Source of the DNA: an uncultured Clostridia bacterium
GTDB lineage: Bacteria; Bacillota; Clostridia; Oscillospirales; Acutalibacteraceae
DNA: 64,000 nucleotides
Direction of reading: 5' to 3'
Assembly (NCBI GenBank): GCA_947166625.1
Contig: CAMVEX010000005.1
Span: forward strand, 62,001-126,000
Positions 16,405 through 24,070 of the stretch are shown in pieces. A program made the translations under genes and the position numbers. The notes beneath the pieces were generated by a model that saw only the letters and a list, made by a program, of their open reading frames with translations, did not search any database and was not told the DNA's origin. Within the stretch, counting starts at the first letter, position 1; every line of letters begins with the position of its first letter.

Positions 16405-18981
16405 TCAGTTCTTTGCCTCATACCAGGTCTTGCCTATTCCTACATCGGCAGGCATTTTTACCCTGAGCTGAACCGCATTTTCCATTTCCCGTTTCAAGAT
16501 CGCGGCGACCGCTTCTGCCTCGTCTTCGGGAGACTCCACTATGAGCTCATCGTGCACCTGCAAAATGAGCTTCGCCTTGAAGTTCATTTTTTCGAGAGCT
16601 TCAAAAACCCTTATCATGGCTATTTTGATAATATCGGCGGCAGTGCCCTGGATCGGCATATTCATCGCCATTCTTTCGGCTCCCGCTCTGACATTTCCGT
16701 TTGATGAATTTATCTCGGGCAGATAACGGCGGCGGTTATATACCGTTTTGACATATCCGTCCTTTCTCGCACCCTCGATCACTCTTTTCATATAATCTCT
16801 GACGGAGCTGAAATGCTCAAGATAATTTGTGATATATTCCTTGGCTTCGGGCACGGAAACGCCGATATTTTTTGAGAGAGAGAATGCACCTATTCCGTAA
16901 ACTATGCCGAAGTTTACCGCCTTTGCCCTGCTTCTCATCAGCGGAGTTACCATCATAAGAGGCATATTGAATACTTCGGAAGCGGTGATCGCGTGAATAT
17001 CAGCGCCGTCATTAAAGGCGGAAATCATGTTTTTGTCATTCGCCATGTGAGCGAGCACTCTGAGCTCGATCTGCGAATAGTCCGCATCAACGAGCATACA
17101 CCCTTCTTTTGCCCTGAAAAATTTGCGCATCTCTTTGCCGAGAGGGGAGCGCACGGGAATATTCTGCAAATTCGGCTCGCTGGATGAGATCCTGCCCGTC
17201 CTCGTTTCGGTCTGATTCAGAGAAGAATGGACCCTTCCGCCGTCTCCTATGACCTTGAGAAGCCCGTCGCAATAAGTGGATTTGAGCTTAGCGAGAGTGC
17301 GGTATTCGAGGATATTTGCCACTACGGGATATTCGCCCGCAAGCGATTCGAGCACCTCTGCGTTTGTGGAATAGCCGCTCTTGGTCTTCTTTTTGGGCGG
17401 TATCCCCATTTTTTCAAAGAGCGCCTCGCCGAGCTGTTTTGTAGAATTCAGATTGAATTCATATCCCGCCTGATCGTATATCTCTTTGACAAGCGCGTCT
17501 ATCTTTTCGCCGAGTTCGGCCCCGAATTTTTCTATGCCGGCGGCGTCCGCCTCAAAGCCCTCGCGCTCCATCGAAGCGAGCACTCTCGCAAGAGGCAGCT
17601 CGATGGTTTCAAGCAGCTCGCGCTGACCGTTGCCGTCTATGATTTTTTCAAGCTCGTCAAACGCCGATTTAAGGTAGGCTGTCAATACCGGCGTCTCGGG
17701 GTTTTCCTCGCCCATTACCCCGGCGTATTCCTCGATTATCCTTTTGAGTGAATAATCCGATGAGGGATTTATCACATAGGCCGAGAGCATCGCGTCGCCG
17801 CAGATATTATTTATATCGATATCCACCCTGTAATCATAAAAGAATGAGTAGAGCGCTTTAGAATTGTATGTGTATTTTTTGATTTCTTTGTCAAAGAGGA
17901 ATTCCGAGCAGAATTCAACATATCCGTCGTTATCGGGCTCGACCGCCGCCACACCGTTTTGAGTTACAAAGTAAAAAATCCCGTCCTCAAAAGTGAAATA
18001 TGCCGCGCCGTCCTTTTTGAAGCCGTTGAGCAGCAGCTTTGTATCGTTGACGGAATAAAGCTCCCTGTTGATCTCCTCCTGCTTTTTATCCTCTCTCACG
18101 ATCTTTACATTTTCAAGTTTAAGCCGTTCTATCATCTTAAACATCTCAAGCTCCGAGAGGATCGCCGTCAGTTTATACGCGTCCCTTTCTCCCGGGATAT
18201 ATGCCGAATAATTTTTATCGACCGGCGCTTCGGTGCTTATGGTGCCGAGTTCTCTGCTGAGATATGCCATGTCTTTGTCATTTGCCAGCTTATCGTGAAC
18301 ACCCTTTTTGATATCGAGAGAGTCGAGATTATTGTAAATATCGTCTATCGTGCCGAATTTTGAAACGAGATCTTTAGCGGTTTTTTCGCCGATTCCGGCA
18401 ACTCCTGGGATGCAGTCAGACGAATCGCCCTGCAACGCCTTTATATCTATCAGGAGCGACGGCGAATCTACCAGATAATCCTCTTTGATTTTCGCTTCGT
18501 CATATTTTACCGTGACGGCATTTCCCATTTTTGTTGAGGCGAGCAAAACATTTACATTGTTTCTTACAAGTTGGAGGGAATCCCTGTCGCCGGTCGCGAT
18601 ATAGCAGAAATCATTCTCCCCGGCGGCTCCGGCGAGGGTGCCGAGAATATCATCTGCCTCCCATCCGGGAGCCTCGAGCAACTTGTATCCCATCGCCCTG
18701 AGAATATCTTTGAGAATCGGCATCTGTGAGGCGAGCTCATCCGGCATACCGTGGCGGTTTGCCTTGTAGCCGTCATACATCTTATGCCTGAAGGTCGGCT
18801 CTTTTACATCAAATGCCACGGCGACCGCGTCCGGCGTAACCTCCGAGGTGAGTTTGAGCAGTATATTCAAAAACCCGAATATGGCGTTTGTATAATATTT
18901 TCCGTCCTTTGTTGACAGCAGCTTTACTCCGTAAAACGCGCGGTTTACAATGCTGTTTCCGTCGATTGCAAGCAGTTTCAT
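16405..18981 (-). CDS. polA: DNA polymerase I
   Basis: An 858-residue repair and Okazaki-processing polymerase. The N-terminal 5'-3' exonuclease domain (1-290) has FDVKEPTFRH and GWEADDILGT. The middle 3'-5' exonuclease-like domain (about 310-460) lacks the catalytic acidic residues: the D-x-E site reads YFTFEDG and the N-x-x-x-D site reads YNSKALY, so proofreading is probably lost, as in Bacillus Pol I. The polymerase domain is intact: motif A DYSQIELR (about 633), motif B RSRAKAVNFGIVYG (about 682-695) and motif C QVHDELIVE (about 809). First gene of the minus operon, with a clear promoter upstream. Confidence 0.96.
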   Translation of the reverse strand: MKLLAIDGNSIVNRAFYGVKLLSTKDGKYYTNAIFGFLNILLKLTSEVTPDAVAVAFDVKEPTFRHKMYDGYKANRHGMPDELASQMPILKDILRAMGYKLLEAPGWEADDILGTLAGAAGENDFCYIATGDRDSLQLVRNNVNVLLASTKMGNAVTVKYDEAKIKEDYLVDSPSLLIDIKALQGDSSDCIPGVAGIGEKTAKDLVSKFGTIDDIYNNLDSLDIKKGVHDKLANDKDMAYLSRELGTISTEAPVDKNYSAYIPGERDAYKLTAILSELEMFKMIERLKLENVKIVREDKKQEEINRELYSVNDTKLLLNGFKKDGAAYFTFEDGIFYFVTQNGVAAVEPDNDGYVEFCSEFLFDKEIKKYTYNSKALYSFFYDYRVDIDINNICGDAMLSAYVINPSSDYSLKRIIEEYAGVMGEENPETPVLTAYLKSAFDELEKIIDGNGQRELLETIELPLARVLASMEREGFEADAAGIEKFGAELGEKIDALVKEIYDQAGYEFNLNSTKQLGEALFEKMGIPPKKKTKSGYSTNAEVLESLAGEYPVVANILEYRTLAKLKSTYCDGLLKVIGDGGRVHSSLNQTETRTGRISSSEPNLQNIPVRSPLGKEMRKFFRAKEGCMLVDADYSQIELRVLAHMANDKNMISAFNDGADIHAITASEVFNMPLMMVTPLMRSRAKAVNFGIVYGIGAFSLSKNIGVSVPEAKEYITNYLEHFSSVRDYMKRVIEGARKDGYVKTVYNRRRYLPEINSSNGNVRAGAERMAMNMPIQGTAADIIKIAMIRVFEALEKMNFKAKLILQVHDELIVESPEDEAEAVAAILKREMENAVQLRVKMPADVGIGKTWYEAKN

Positions 18982-19010
18982 AAAATCACTCCAAGTCCGA
19001 TTTGATATGT

Positions 19011-19040
19011 ATTATAACATATTTATGCCATAATACTCAA
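19011..19040 (-). promoter_or_regulatory. Sigma-A promoter of the polA operon
   Basis: Reading the minus strand, TTGAGT is followed after 18 bases by TATAAT, ending 30 bases before the polA start codon. It is the only good -35/-10 pair seen close upstream. Confidence 0.7.
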
Positions 19041-19223
19041 TCTCTTTATAAAAAATATCTGTAACAGATTATTTTCATTGATAATTGAGATCATTGATTT
19101 TTTCAATATATTTCAACATATTTCAACATTTTTCAAAAGCGTCAAAAGCCTTATAAATCGGCGATTCCGGCTGTTTGATGTGAAAAAGGCGTGAAAAAAA
19201 TGTGAAAAAATTTAAAATAATAC

Positions 19224-19252
19224 TTGATTTTTCACAAAACTTGTATTAAAAT
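19224..19252 (+). promoter_or_regulatory. Sigma-A promoter of the zinc-finger gene
   Basis: TTGATT, a 17-base spacer, then TAAAAT. Transcription would start near 19259, exactly before a small hairpin (ACAATA/TATTGT, 19261-19277) that would then sit at the mRNA 5' end. This gives a leader of about 260 bases. Confidence 0.75.
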
Positions 19253-19519
19253 AACGAAGTACAATATAGGGTATTGTATATAAGTGTTTCCTACAACATA
19301 TCCAAAGGAGGCGAAAAGGAGTTCATCGAGGGATGAATTACAACTGAATCATTTCAACTATCGGTTTTGCTTAAGTGATAACACTTCTCCGGCACCATAC
19401 AAAATAAATGGAAAATATTTTGTAATTTTTTGCTCACACCGTCGGTTTAGCTGACCGACACAAATCTTTTTTGATATCGATATCTGAAAAGAACCTTTAT
19501 TAGGAATAACCGAAGGGAA
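19253..19519 (+). promoter_or_regulatory. Long structured leader, possible cis-acting RNA
   Basis: Between the promoter and the gene there is no long open frame but much structure. A 5' hairpin lies at 19261-19277. Two Shine-Dalgarno-like runs follow (AAAGGAGG at 19304-19311, AAAAGGAG at 19314-19321), then hairpin TTCATC/GATGAA (19322-19337) containing the ATG of a four-codon frame ATG AAT TAC AAC TGA (19333-19347). Next comes the left arm of a long inverted repeat (19358-19387), an ACAAAAT/ATTTTGT hairpin followed by six T (19399-19431), and GTCGGT/ACCGAC (19441-19459) followed by a T-run. The last two look like weak terminators. TCGGT at 19361-19365 could pair instead with ACCGA at 19454-19458. 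It matches no riboswitch class I recognise. Confidence 0.5.
19358..19387 (+). repeat. Left arm of 27-30 bp inverted repeat
   Basis: Complementary to 20407-20436 on the far side of the gene. Over the core 27 bases there are three differences from a perfect inverted repeat, each compatible with a G-U pair in RNA. Three further pairs extend it inward. Confidence 0.85.
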
Positions 19520-19528
19520 ATGATTGAC

Positions 19529-20368
19529 ATGAAGAAAGTAATTGCAGTTATATTAGCATTGGTACTTGCGCTTTCAGTTTCTGCAATCGCATTCGCTGAA
19601 GATGGGACAACCGCTACTACTGCTAAGGTTTGTCCTGTTTGTAAAATGGAATTTGATAATTCTATTGATTACAACAAGCATCTTGAGGATTATCATAAGA
19701 CAAAGTTTGAAATCGGTACCGATCCCGAGACCGGTGAAACCATTTATCATTCATACTTTGTTTGCCAGACATGCGGTAAGAAATATGAAAACCCCGACGC
19801 ATACGTTGCCTGCCTTAACAGCCACATCAGAAATGATGAATTCGTATGCCAGATTTGCGATGCCCGGTTTAAGGACTATGATAAGTACAACGAGCATGTA
19901 AAGACTCACTACAGCGTAGTTGACCATAAATGGTCACAGTATATCAAACTCTCGCTGCCCGAGCTGATGGATAAATTCTTCGGCTATATGCAGACCAGCG
20001 GAGTTATGACCACCATTCTCGATCTCTTCTGGGATCTCTATAACAGAGTGATGGAATATATTGTTAACGGCGTAGCGGGTTCAGGTGAAGGCGAAGCCGA
20101 AGTTGCCGGCGCGGTTGATAAACTCGACGCAGCAATCGGCGGCCTCAAGCTCCCCGAACTCCAGCTTACAGGCATTAAAGACTTTATGAATGCTATCAAG
20201 CAGAAGATTAAAGATTTCTATGCCAACAACCAGGAAACCGTTGTAGAAGAAGTTACTAATGCAGAAGCTCCTGTAGAAACCGGTTCCGCAACTGCCGGAA
20301 TAGCAGTGTTTGCTGTTATCTCAGCTGCGGCTGCAGCAGCCTATGTTTGCTCCAAGAAAAAGGCATAA
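19529..20368 (+). CDS. Exported protein with three classical C2H2 zinc fingers
   Basis: About 279 residues. An ATG at 19520 is also in frame; GAAGGGA is better spaced for 19529 (numbering below counts from 19520). A signal peptide ends near AIAFA (residue 27). Three fingers follow with C-x2-C-x12-H/C-x3-4-H spacing: C38, C41, H54, H59; C82, C85, C98, H102; C110, C113, H126, H130. Each has the aromatic residues at the canonical core positions (F45/Y51, Y89/Y95, F117/Y123). A helical region follows (140-240), then PVETGS (251-256), a hydrophobic segment and CSKKKA, resembling a sortase-type or membrane C-terminal anchor. It is transcribed alone, with its own promoter, leader and terminator. Function unknown; extracellular zinc binding is inferred. 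Confidence 0.8.
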   Translation: MKKVIAVILALVLALSVSAIAFAEDGTTATTAKVCPVCKMEFDNSIDYNKHLEDYHKTKFEIGTDPETGETIYHSYFVCQTCGKKYENPDAYVACLNSHIRNDEFVCQICDARFKDYDKYNEHVKTHYSVVDHKWSQYIKLSLPELMDKFFGYMQTSGVMTTILDLFWDLYNRVMEYIVNGVAGSGEGEAEVAGAVDKLDAAIGGLKLPELQLTGIKDFMNAIKQKIKDFYANNQETVVEEVTNAEAPVETGSATAGIAVFAVISAAAAAAYVCSKKKA

Positions 20369-20401
20369 TCTTTGATGATTATGCCGGAGCGTGATCACGC
20401 T
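20362..20401 (+). other. Stem-loop over the stop codon and adjacent palindrome
   Basis: GGCATAATC/GATTATGCC (20362-20385) is a perfect 9-bp stem with a 6-base loop that contains the stop codon of the zinc-finger gene. It is followed by the perfect 14-base palindrome AGCGTGATCACGCT (20388-20401). TGCCGGAG (20382-20389) is also complementary to CTCCGGCA (19387-19394) in the leader. Confidence 0.7.
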
Positions 20402-20406
20402 ATTCT

Positions 20407-20436
20407 GGAGTGTTATCACTTAAGCAGAGCTGATAG
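20407..20436 (+). repeat. Right arm of 27-30 bp inverted repeat
   Basis: Pairs with 19358-19387. It lies between the stop codon and the terminator, so both arms are inside the predicted transcript. Confidence 0.85.
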
Positions 20437-20446
20437 ATCATCACAT

Positions 20447-20482
20447 TGCCCCTGCCTTTCGGCGGGGGCATCTGCTTTTTTT
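20447..20482 (+). terminator. Intrinsic terminator of the zinc-finger gene
   Basis: A 10-bp GC-rich stem (TGCCCCTGCC / GGCGGGGGCA, one G-T pair) with loop TTTC, followed by TCTGC and seven T. It separates this unit from the pilus operon. Confidence 0.92.
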
Positions 20483-20692
20483 ACTCAGGTCGATGACCGG
20501 TTTTGCGTATGTTGCGTATAATATAATGAAACAGAGAAAAGCGGCAGGATACACATCAAATCAAATATGAACTTTGGTTTAATTCTTTGAAGGTTAATAA
20601 TTATTCAATATAGAATTTGTATATTATTCACAAAAAATTATAAAAAATTTCTTGATTTGTCCGCAAATTAAAATATTTTTTCCAAAAAACTA

Positions 20693-20721
20693 TTGATTTT
20701 TTGCATTTTCCATATTATTAT
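20693..20721 (+). promoter_or_regulatory. Sigma-A promoter of the type IV pilus operon
   Basis: TTGATT, 17 bases, TATTAT, in an AT-rich stretch about 75 bases before pilT. The gap 20483-20692 holds nothing else that I can identify beyond AT-rich sequence. Confidence 0.65.
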
Positions 20722-20733
20722 AAATGTGTAAAA

Positions 20734-20763
20734 GTGCACCCGTGTGATCCGGTCAGGGTGTGC
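20734..20763 (+). promoter_or_regulatory. Leader hairpin before pilT
   Basis: GTGCACCC and GGGTGTGC form an 8-bp stem (two G-U pairs) around a 14-base loop in the short pilT leader. Its place suggests control of the pilus operon. It does not match the c-di-GMP riboswitch consensus I know. Confidence 0.4.
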
Positions 20764-20795
20764 CGAGCATATTTTAGTTATAGGTTGGTGGATTT

Positions 20796-21848
20796 GTGTT
20801 TACTTTTGAAGACTATATCAACAAGGCATTCAGCAGAAACGCGTCAGACGTTCATATCTGTGCAGGCTACTTCCCTTCAATGAGAGTTGACTCTCATGTT
20901 ATACCCATTACCGAAGAAAGTTTATATCCCGATGAATGCGAAAAGCTCGCGTTCGGTATAATGAACAATCGCCAGAAGGATGTTTTTGAGAAGAACGGCG
21001 AGGTTGACTTCGCTTATGAGAAGCCCGGTATTCCGAGACTTCGTATAAACGTATATCAGCAGTCGGGCTCCGTAGCTCTCGCTGCCAGACTTCTGAATGA
21101 CCATATCCCTCATATCCAGGATCTCGGTCTTCCCGAGCAGATCCTTCAGATGCGTGATAAGCGCCGCGGCCTTGTCCTCGTTACGGGCATCACCGGCTCC
21201 GGTAAATCCACTACCCTCGCTTCGCTCATTCAGTCGATGAATGAAAGATATGATCATCATATTATTACCATAGAAGAGCCTATCGAATACATTTATCCCC
21301 GCGGTAAATCCATTATCAACCAGCGTGAGATCGGCTCGGATTCATTGAATTTCGGCAACGCTCTTCGCGCCGCCCTCCGTCAGGACCCTGATGTTATCCT
21401 CGTCGGCGAAATGCGTGACCTTGAGACCATTACGACCGCTATCAGCGCCGCTGAAACCGGCCACTTGGTTCTCTCGACCCTTCATACCGTTTCCGCCGCA
21501 GGCGCGGTTGACCGTATTATAGACGTTTTCCCCGAGCATCAGCAGCAGCAGATCCGTTCACAGCTTGCGGATGTTCTCGAGTGCGTTCTTTCTCAGCAGC
21601 TTATTCCGAGAATCAACGGCGGCAGAGCTGTCGCGACCGAGCTTATGATCGCAAACTCCGCTATCCGTAACCATATCCGTGAAGGTAAGACCTTCCAGAT
21701 CCCCAACACCATGGCGACCTGCAAGAAGCAGGGTATGCACATGATGGATGATTCGATCTATGATCTCTATGTAAGAGGTAAGATCTCCGGCGATTACGCA
21801 TTATCCTATGCGGTTGACCGCGAAGAAATGAGCAAAAAGATCTATTAA
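20796..21848 (+). CDS. pilT: Type IV pilus retraction-type ATPase PilT
   Basis: A 350-residue hexameric ATPase of the PilT/GspE family. Walker A GITGSGKST (131-139), Asp box ITIEEPIEY (157-165), Walker B DPDVILVGEMRD (197-208), His box AAETGHLVLSTLHT (218-231) and AIRNHIRE (289-296), the retraction-motor signature, are all present. The GTG start follows a weak GG-rich site. It opens the pilus operon. No PilB extension ATPase is encoded in this window, so it must be elsewhere or this enzyme must do both jobs. Confidence 0.93.
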   Translation: MFTFEDYINKAFSRNASDVHICAGYFPSMRVDSHVIPITEESLYPDECEKLAFGIMNNRQKDVFEKNGEVDFAYEKPGIPRLRINVYQQSGSVALAARLLNDHIPHIQDLGLPEQILQMRDKRRGLVLVTGITGSGKSTTLASLIQSMNERYDHHIITIEEPIEYIYPRGKSIINQREIGSDSLNFGNALRAALRQDPDVILVGEMRDLETITTAISAAETGHLVLSTLHTVSAAGAVDRIIDVFPEHQQQQIRSQLADVLECVLSQQLIPRINGGRAVATELMIANSAIRNHIREGKTFQIPNTMATCKKQGMHMMDDSIYDLYVRGKISGDYALSYAVDREEMSKKIY

Positions 21849-21850
21849 TT

Positions 21851-22340
21851 TGTAATTAGCAATGTTAAATGAGTAATTATGGGTCACCCTTCGGGTTCCT
21901 GATTATGATCATTGTTTTGTCGTGTTGTAATGGATAATGCTGTTCTTACAAAATCCAAAGATTTCGCTCTCAGAATTATTAAGCTTCATCGTTTCCTGAC
22001 GGTTGAAAAAAGAGAGGATGTTTTATCCAAACAGATTTTACGCTCAGGGACGAGTATAGGAGCGAATGTTAAAGAATCCACCTGTGCTCAGAGTAAAGCG
22101 GATTTTTATGCAAAGCTCTATATTGCTTTTAAAGAAGCGGCTGAGACCGAATATTGGCTTGAATTGCTTCATGAGTCAGGTTTGATTGATGATAAAGCGT
22201 TTCAAAGCATATATTCCGATTGTCAGGAATTGTTGAAATTATTAAGCTCCATTACCAAGACGCAAAGAACCGATTAATCCGGAGCAAAGCGACCCGAAAT
22301 TACTAATTACTAATTTCTAATTACCGATTACTAACTACTA
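21851..22340 (+). mobile_element. Small element A with a four-helix-bundle gene
   Basis: The gap between pilT and pilC is filled by a unit with similar inverted ends. The left end has TAATTAGCAAT-type repeats, then GGGTC..TTCGGGTTCC (to about 21900). The right end reads CCGGAGCAAAGCGACCC followed by degenerate TAATTAGTAATT runs (22278-22340). The single gene inside is a 23S-IVP-family protein. The ends are imperfect, so the borders are approximate. Confidence 0.55.
21930..22277 (+). CDS. Four-helix-bundle protein, 23S rRNA intervening-sequence family
   Basis: About 115 residues matching the IVP/S23 family (PF05635-type): LRIIKLHRFL, the signature SKQILRSGTSIGANVKES, a central FYAKLYIAFKEAAETEYWLELL and a C-terminal helix LLKLLSSITK. 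Members are small helical proteins often found inside 23S rRNA inserts or repeat-flanked cassettes; the distantly related Avd protein binds nucleic acid in diversity-generating retroelements. The frame can be extended to a TTG at 21912, but the ATG at 21930 aligns with the copy at 23644. No Shine-Dalgarno is visible. It sits between pilT and pilC without disrupting them, so it is a passenger, not a pilus gene. Confidence 0.8.
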   Translation: MDNAVLTKSKDFALRIIKLHRFLTVEKREDVLSKQILRSGTSIGANVKESTCAQSKADFYAKLYIAFKEAAETEYWLELLHESGLIDDKAFQSIYSDCQELLKLLSSITKTQRTD

Positions 22341-23581: not shown

Positions 23582-24070
23582 AATCAGCAATTAGCAATTA
23601 GCAGTTAGCAATTGCGGGTCGTCCTGCGGACTCCGAATTATATATGGACAACATAATTGTAGTTAAATCTAAAGGGTTTCCCTTGCGAATCATAAAACTG
23701 TACAGGTTTTTGAGCGAAAAAAGTGAATTTGTTTTGTCAAGGCAGATTTTAAAATCCGGCACAAGTATTGGTGCCAATGTTAATGAGGCGATTTGTGCTC
23801 AGTCTGAGTCTGATTTTTATGCCAAAATGTATATTGCTTAAAAGGAAGCTCAGGAGACTAAGTATTGGCTTGAATTGCTTCACGAAAGCGGTTATATAGA
23901 CACCGCCGCTTATGAAAGTGTCTATGATGATTGTCTTGAGATAGTTAAGATATTGAGTTCAATCACCAAGGCGCAAAAATCAAAATAGCATTAGTATGTG
24001 AAAAGCAATAATATTTTTTCGCCGGAGGCGACACCCTTAATTGCTAATTGCACATTGCTAATTGCTAATT
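23582..24070 (+). mobile_element. Small element B with a decayed four-helix-bundle gene
   Basis: The left end has repeated CAATTAGC units then GGGTCGTCCTGCGGACTCCG (to about 23634). The right end, read inverted, has AATTAGCAATTAGCAATGTG, more AATTAGC, then GGGTGTCGCCTCCGG (24021-24070). The content and order match element A. The outer 38 bases of the right end (24033-24070) recur identically at 25353-25390. Confidence 0.65.
23644..23988 (+). pseudogene. Four-helix-bundle (IVP family) gene with internal stop
   Basis: A close homologue of the gene at 21930: LRIIKLYRFL, SRQILKSGTSIGANVNEA, FYAKMYIA, then a TAA at 23839-23841 where the other copy has TTT (Phe). The same frame continues afterwards with KEAQETKYWLELLHESGY and ILSSITKAQKSK to a stop at 23986-23988. 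The full 115-codon frame is therefore kept except for one nonsense codon, so inactivation looks recent. It lies inside element B between pilC and the first pilin. Confidence 0.8.

Follow-up and report, generated by a model that had tools for sequence, protein, structure and literature searches.

A gene for a predicted secreted protein is enclosed, in the window (the whole stretch of 64,000 nucleotides that was analysed), by a long inverted repeat whose arms lie in the predicted 5' and 3' untranslated regions (UTRs) of its message, and comparison of 14 species shows that the complementarity of these arms has been kept with compensatory changes. As the predicted stem was kept while its letters changed, it is probable that the message forms a closed loop. 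We give a probability of roughly 0.62 to the full statement that the mRNA closes through a helix of 27-30 bp between its 5' and 3' UTRs and that this slows its decay. That the pairing reflects real RNA biology is highly probable; that its main role is stabilisation is argued by analogy, and there we see about even odds.

The inverted repeat and its predicted transcript

An inverted repeat around one gene had been reported in a preliminary description of this DNA, and it was readily recovered: two arms of 28 nt (19358-19385 and 20409-20436), 89% complementary and with 1023 nt between them, flank the coding region at 19520-20368. The sole departures from complementarity, at arm positions 6, 8 and 10, become G-U or U-G pairs when read as sense RNA, and three more pairs on the inner side, one of them U-G, bring the helix to 30 bp (19358-19387 with 20407-20436); the window sequence agrees with the earlier account on both points. 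An extra inner match was also described, and is present as CTCCGGCA (19387-19394) and TGCCGGAG (20382-20389). Inspection of 13 leaders by eye found a match of this kind in about six (G000, G009, G026, G028, G064 and G012) and did not find it in G067, G003, G004, G007, G010, G060 and G020; the match is therefore no regular component of the element. The features of the locus are as follows.

19224..19252, plus strand: promoter-like site TTGATT-17-TAAAAT, from the promoter scan
19260..19278, plus strand: hairpin TACAATA/TATTGTA near the predicted 5' end, from the sequence; a weak consensus hairpin of 5 pairs in the 13-species leader alignment
19304..19314, plus strand: Shine-Dalgarno-like AAAGGAGGCGA, not closely followed by a start codon, 10/11 matches
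19358..19387, plus strand: 5' arm of the predicted panhandle, 30 bp with 20407-20436, from sequence and comparison
19398..19424, plus strand: 5' UTR hairpin TACAAAATA/TATTTTGTA, from the sequence; other hairpins here in relatives, by eye
19429..19438, plus strand: TTTGCTCACA, last nine bases invariant in 13/13 aligned leaders
19441..19459, plus strand: 5' UTR hairpin GTCGGTT/GACCGAC; relatives have a hairpin with a different stem at the same place
19467..19491, plus strand: 5' UTR hairpin around GATATCGATATC, from pairing statistics over 8 pairs
19520..20368, plus strand: gene whose product is predicted to be secreted and anchored at its C-terminus and has C2H2-like zinc-finger motifs; start at 19520 or 19529
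20389..20400, plus strand: 3' UTR hairpin GCGTGATCACGC; G061 has GTACAATTGTAC at the same place
20407..20436, plus strand: 3' arm of the predicted panhandle, from sequence and comparison
20447..20470, plus strand: terminator-like hairpin with T run, 10 nt past the 3' arm

The best ungapped helix between the flanks of the window gene scored 29.2, and 100 base shuffles reached at most 16.0. A helix scan of 242 open reading frames (ORFs) from the window and 12 relative loci returned ten with a score of at least 20, seven of them the window gene and its homologues and three of them window ORFs adjoining an AATTAGC repeat. These three (22350, 24165 and 24924) were set aside, their high scores coming from that unrelated repeat.

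Both arms had been placed inside one transcript, after its promoter and before its terminator, and the predictions agree: a promoter-like site at 19224-19252 precedes the 5' arm, a terminator-like hairpin at 20447-20470 follows the 3' arm, and the same order is found in most of the 14 species. With the UTR limits as predicted, the complementary 5' and 3' UTRs thus belong to one transcription unit. The promoter scan gave 6 sites in the window region against 3.9 expected in shuffles, and the promoter is therefore weak evidence on its own; terminator-like sites in the region numbered 6 against 0.9 expected. A permissive promoter scan found some upstream site in all 14 species, and TTGATT-17-TA(A/G)AAT was among the two top-listed sites upstream of the arm in 8 of them; near the arm of G061 there was no convincing promoter. 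A terminator-like hairpin past the 3' arm was located by script in 13 of the 14 species and by eye, with a longer loop, in G061. A second terminator-like inverted repeat, in the minus-strand reading, lies across the end of the window gene at 20362-20385.

Each predicted transcript was folded over a stretch that began 110 nt upstream of the left core and ended 80 nt past the start of the right core (the core being a conserved 16 bp of the arms, defined below), using the thermodynamics of naked RNA with no ribosomes. The helix was part of the minimum-energy fold in 14 of 14, with all 16 core pairs formed in 12 species; G012 and G060 each formed 15 of the 16. The mean pair probability of the core was 0.93-0.999. 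The earlier suggestion of an mRNA panhandle is thus supported by the predicted folds as well as by the compensated arms in 14 species.

Conservation of the arms and compensatory changes

The core of the arms, GTGTTATCAYTTAAGC (16 bp), was searched for at up to one mismatch in 45 genomes of the same genus. It was present in 18 of these and on both strands in 13; G060, in which the 3' core is altered at two places, is the fourteenth two-arm genome. The genome holding the window (2.49 Mb, 49 contigs) has only two core copies at this threshold, and one further copy in the window, at 3 mismatches, is within chance. Both arms flank genes of the window gene's family in 14 of the 45 genomes. As to whether homologues keep both arms or one, both were kept in these 14, and G034 shows the 3' arm only because its contig ends inside the gene. 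Single core matches were found in G024, G027 and G036, the last of which was rejected as it precedes an unrelated ORF. In G061 the arms enclose two tandem family genes; the arms therefore bracket the predicted transcription unit and not the ORF.

Helix scores of the 13 scored family genes with arms were 25.4-34.3, and the highest among 23 scored family genes without arms was 15.5 (L112, whose own shuffle maximum was 14.2). RNAduplex energies compared with shuffles gave z of -2.8 to -6.6 at 12 arm-bearing single-gene loci (1/60 shuffles as low or lower at L102 and L105) and of -2.2 to 0.6 at six armless loci. The two-gene locus L108 was low in both scans (RNAduplex z 0.5, ungapped score 11.6) because only its second gene was considered and the arms were missed.

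The core was also searched for in 394 genomes of the order, a set in which G000 is the sole listed member of its genus. Matches occurred in 19 genomes, of which G046 and G257 have one per strand but on different contigs, and no close inverted core pair was found outside G000 at up to one mismatch. With no such pair in the other 393 genomes, the element is either recent or has diverged in sequence past the reach of the search. Eleven left-arm records were labelled Clostridia, Clostridiaceae or Ruminococcaceae (ten MAGs and one uncultured isolate assembly), and the labels of some name goat omasum, water-buffalo rumen, horse faeces or reindeer. The genus is thus one of gut-type Clostridia, represented chiefly by metagenomes.

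Pair statistics were taken from an ungapped alignment of 14 species by 30 pairs, giving 420 cells, with counts that kinship may inflate. Standard pairs filled 97.1% of the cells and two-sided changes were found at 8 of the 30 pairs; none of 500 shuffles reached either value, or the covariation score of the arms. Where the arms have diverged, then, they have done so with compensation, and the pairing is conserved with compensatory changes across the 14 species, in counts uncorrected for kinship. When the partners were slid by 1-3 columns as a control, 33.3-45.5% of cells were paired and at most 4 pairs showed two-sided changes. The number of further pair types was unexceptional, being reached by 59 of 500 shuffles. 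Whole 3' arms were also permuted among species: the observed 460 paired cells over 37 columns compare with at most 453 in 5000 permutations. The observed count was reached by no permutation for the 11 columns outside the core, by 12 of 5000 for the core and by 35 of 5000 for the outermost six columns; for the inner four columns the permutations were not exceeded (990 of 5000 reached the observed count).

Individual species illustrate these changes. In G064 the pair CTATC/GATAG has become CTGTC/GACAG, with compensation, and in G061 the outer stem is largely altered on both sides. The close relatives G004 and G010 differ in their outer pairs, again with compensation, and G067 has an extended helix, unlike its nearest relative G003. 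Within the core a change from G-C to A-U is compensated, and the constancy of the 16-bp core exceeds what pairing alone needs.

It had been argued from the window that the arms showed only wobble changes. This part stands for the window itself; in the relatives it fails, since A-C and other mismatches occur among the 14 species, and so "only wobble" is not general. Over the 27-bp helix the 14 species have 330 Watson-Crick, 40 G-U, 6 A-C (three in G012 and one each in G007, G004 and G060) and 2 other cells (C-C in G020, U-U at the outer end in G061), and in the 30-pair alignment (420 cells) 6 A-C and 6 other mismatched cells were counted. By parsimony on a protein tree, standard pairs changed 9 times to G-U, 5 times to A-C and 4 times to other mismatches, and there were 5 double changes between Watson-Crick pairs. 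Counted by event, the excess of G-U over A-C (9 vs 5) is not significant (one-sided binomial P 0.21). Given this result and the mismatches of the relatives, the wobble argument is weak alone, and compensation is the real evidence.

Leader elements and the encoded protein

Leaders of 13 species were aligned, G061 being left out. The motif TTGCTCACA was unchanged in all 13; it was not found before the gene in G061, though the arms are present there. A hairpin with a stem of 7-10 pairs follows TTGCTCACA in 12 of the 13 leaders, with stems that differ among species, and for G012 the script placed its best stem at another site. The hairpin around GATATCGATATC (GATATC hairpin) is paired in 98.0% of 101 cells over 8 pairs; its two-sided changes are confined to 1 of 8 pairs, a count reached by 195 of 500 shuffles, and its covariation score was reached by 1 of 500. 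A covariance model of the 13 leaders, searched with strict filters at E ≤0.01 in the 45 genus genomes, found the same 13 genomes once each, a recovery of its own members that follows by construction, and gave no matches beyond them. A search of 18900-20900 against Rfam at a permissive E-value returned 4 weak matches, none at the gathering threshold. The hairpins of the leader, together with an unvarying TTGCTCACA, suggest a further regulatory or binding function.

The Shine-Dalgarno-like site AAAGGAGGCGA has 10 of 11 matches in the window, where 1 of 200 shuffles was as good. Stretches with 10/11 matches also occur in G026, G028 and G060, and those in G004 and G061 are no better than shuffles. 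The stretch lies 26-80 nt upstream of the arm in several leaders; it is strong in G000, G026, G028, G060 and G012, in the last of which an ATG stands close behind it, and elsewhere it is weak or misplaced by the script. 5' stabilisers of the STAB-SD type consist of a strong Shine-Dalgarno sequence in a 5' UTR without a start codon, and AAAGGAGGCGA may, as a hypothesis, be a ribosome-bound stabiliser.

The window protein matches the C2H2 zinc-finger models PF13894 (36.8 bits) and PF00096 (35.6 bits), both above the Pfam cut-offs. Its N-terminus is signal-peptide-like by eye, and its C-terminus has P-x-(D/E)-T-G-S followed by a hydrophobic stretch and then KKKA; the NPXTG anchor model gave 15.0 bits, below its cut-off of 23.5. 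The family of predicted secreted, anchored proteins has a match in 43 of the 45 genus genomes, some with several members. Among the members compared (L109-L134 and the window gene), the C-terminal P-x-(D/E)-T-G-S is common to most, and zinc-finger-like motifs are found in some and absent from others.

Possible roles of the pairing and known systems

If the helix forms in the cell, it would bury the 3' end beside the terminator hairpin and, together with the structured leader, would shield the 5' side; RNase J, RNase Y and 3' exonucleases would then be slowed and a long-lived message would yield surface protein. Abundance of this protein is a guess. In some species a contribution may come from the Shine-Dalgarno-like stretch upstream, which lacks a start codon. 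RNase III would be expected to be drawn to a long, perfect duplex, and this speaks against protection. A more elaborate reading, which we consider rather unlikely, is that of a composite RNA in which the two UTRs are one structure and the coding region an inserted loop, a conserved closed-loop mRNA; the panhandle would gather the terminator, the leader hairpins and the upstream ribosome-binding stretch, and ribosomes or a bound factor could be passed from 3' to 5' without poly(A) or cap.

The stalks around 16S and 23S rRNA, in which leader and trailer pair around a long body, are substrates of RNase III, and the arms described here would give the same leader-trailer pairing with a coding region as the body. 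Processing by RNase III is the main rival explanation, since the B. subtilis enzyme, according to PMC11780869, cuts long-range mRNA duplexes of 10-36 bp; a cut in the core would trim the mRNA to a closed body on a short stem or would start its decay. The helix of 27-30 bp falls within that range, the near-invariant core fits recognition by the enzyme, and the icaR 5'/3' duplex is described in PMC7821165 as cut by RNase III. We nevertheless think this reading somewhat unlikely, as compensation is also seen in outer pairs away from the core and the arms are about 1 kb apart. The B. subtilis substrates, long intramolecular mRNA duplexes like the present one, are defined by mapped cleavage and have up to 505 nt between cuts in the account of PMC11780869, whereas the helix here exceeds that distance and is defined by comparison. 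A switch is a further and doubtful reading: the panhandle would close a large cis-regulatory RNA with parts in both UTRs, and its forming or opening would alter ribosome access or decay in response to a ligand, a protein or a small RNA. A switch would fit the hairpins and the invariant TTGCTCACA of 13 leaders, and likewise the lack of an Rfam family at threshold over 18900-20900; however, the leader model matches only its own 13 of 45 genus genomes, so that no regulon is seen, and in G061 the arms are present although no TTGCTCACA was found ahead of the gene.

Two readings at the DNA level, both raised in the preliminary description, have lost ground. Were the arms two sites for one regulator (looped operators), RNA complementarity would be a by-product of their opposite orientation, and a nearly invariant 16-bp core, with a G/A change at one core position found in both arms together, is what such sites might show. 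Yet the G-U columns are kept in 12, 11 and 8 of the 14 species, so that the two arms, though paired as RNA, are unlike each other as DNA sites; the outer letters vary between species and are often complementary within a species, and the small number of core copies in the window's own genome also makes this reading very improbable. The least credible is a cassette, mobile or invertible, with terminal inverted repeats as its boundaries. Gene neighbours do vary between species groups, with about six contexts among the species, and DNA similarity starts or stops at the arm edges in several relatives; however, in near relatives the sequence outside the left arm is similar, so that similarity runs past the arm and the arms are not the ends of the unit. 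Each of the 14 genomes has one arm pair, the arms enclose nothing but the family gene or genes, and differing terminator-like hairpins follow the right arm. Varied neighbours with a similar left flank are as expected of rearrangement, and not of a cassette ending at the arms.

Closure of the mRNA with slowed decay, the reading we prefer, has partial precedents. The bacterial 5'/3'-UTR pairings named in one review (PMC7821165) are RNAIII, icaR and hbs, short where a size is given there. In B. subtilis hbs a 14-nt interaction between the 5' and 3' UTRs is reported to protect against RNase Y (Braun et al. 2017, via PMC7821165). The two cases are alike as pairings of two UTRs in one Firmicute mRNA; they differ in length (14 nt vs 27-30 bp), in the gene and in conservation, the review describing functional 3' UTRs of the hbs kind as not conserved between close relatives. 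The S. aureus icaR message likewise has a long-range UTR pairing across one coding region, in which a UCCCC motif of the 3' UTR pairs with the ribosome-binding site and represses translation (as given in PMC3868564 and PMC7821165); here, in contrast, 132 nt separate the end of the 5' arm from the first start codon that could be used, and the predicted pairing does not involve the ribosome-binding site. By analogy, the most likely main role would be protection of the ends of a surface-protein message. No earlier report of this element was found in the literature searched, which covered the field in part. A helix of 27-30 bp kept by compensation in 14 species would offer a natural test case for bacterial closed-loop mRNAs, in respect of stability and ribosome recycling, and for asking how a duplex of this length and RNase III can exist side by side.

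Elsewhere in the window, between 21850 and 25400, copies of AATTAGCAATTAGCAATTAA and its complement lie in the intergenic gaps of a cluster that includes members of the T2SSE and T2SSF families. Near these copies are two small ORFs, at 21912-22277 and, shorter and similar to the first, at 23644-23841, whose products look like four-helix-bundle proteins.
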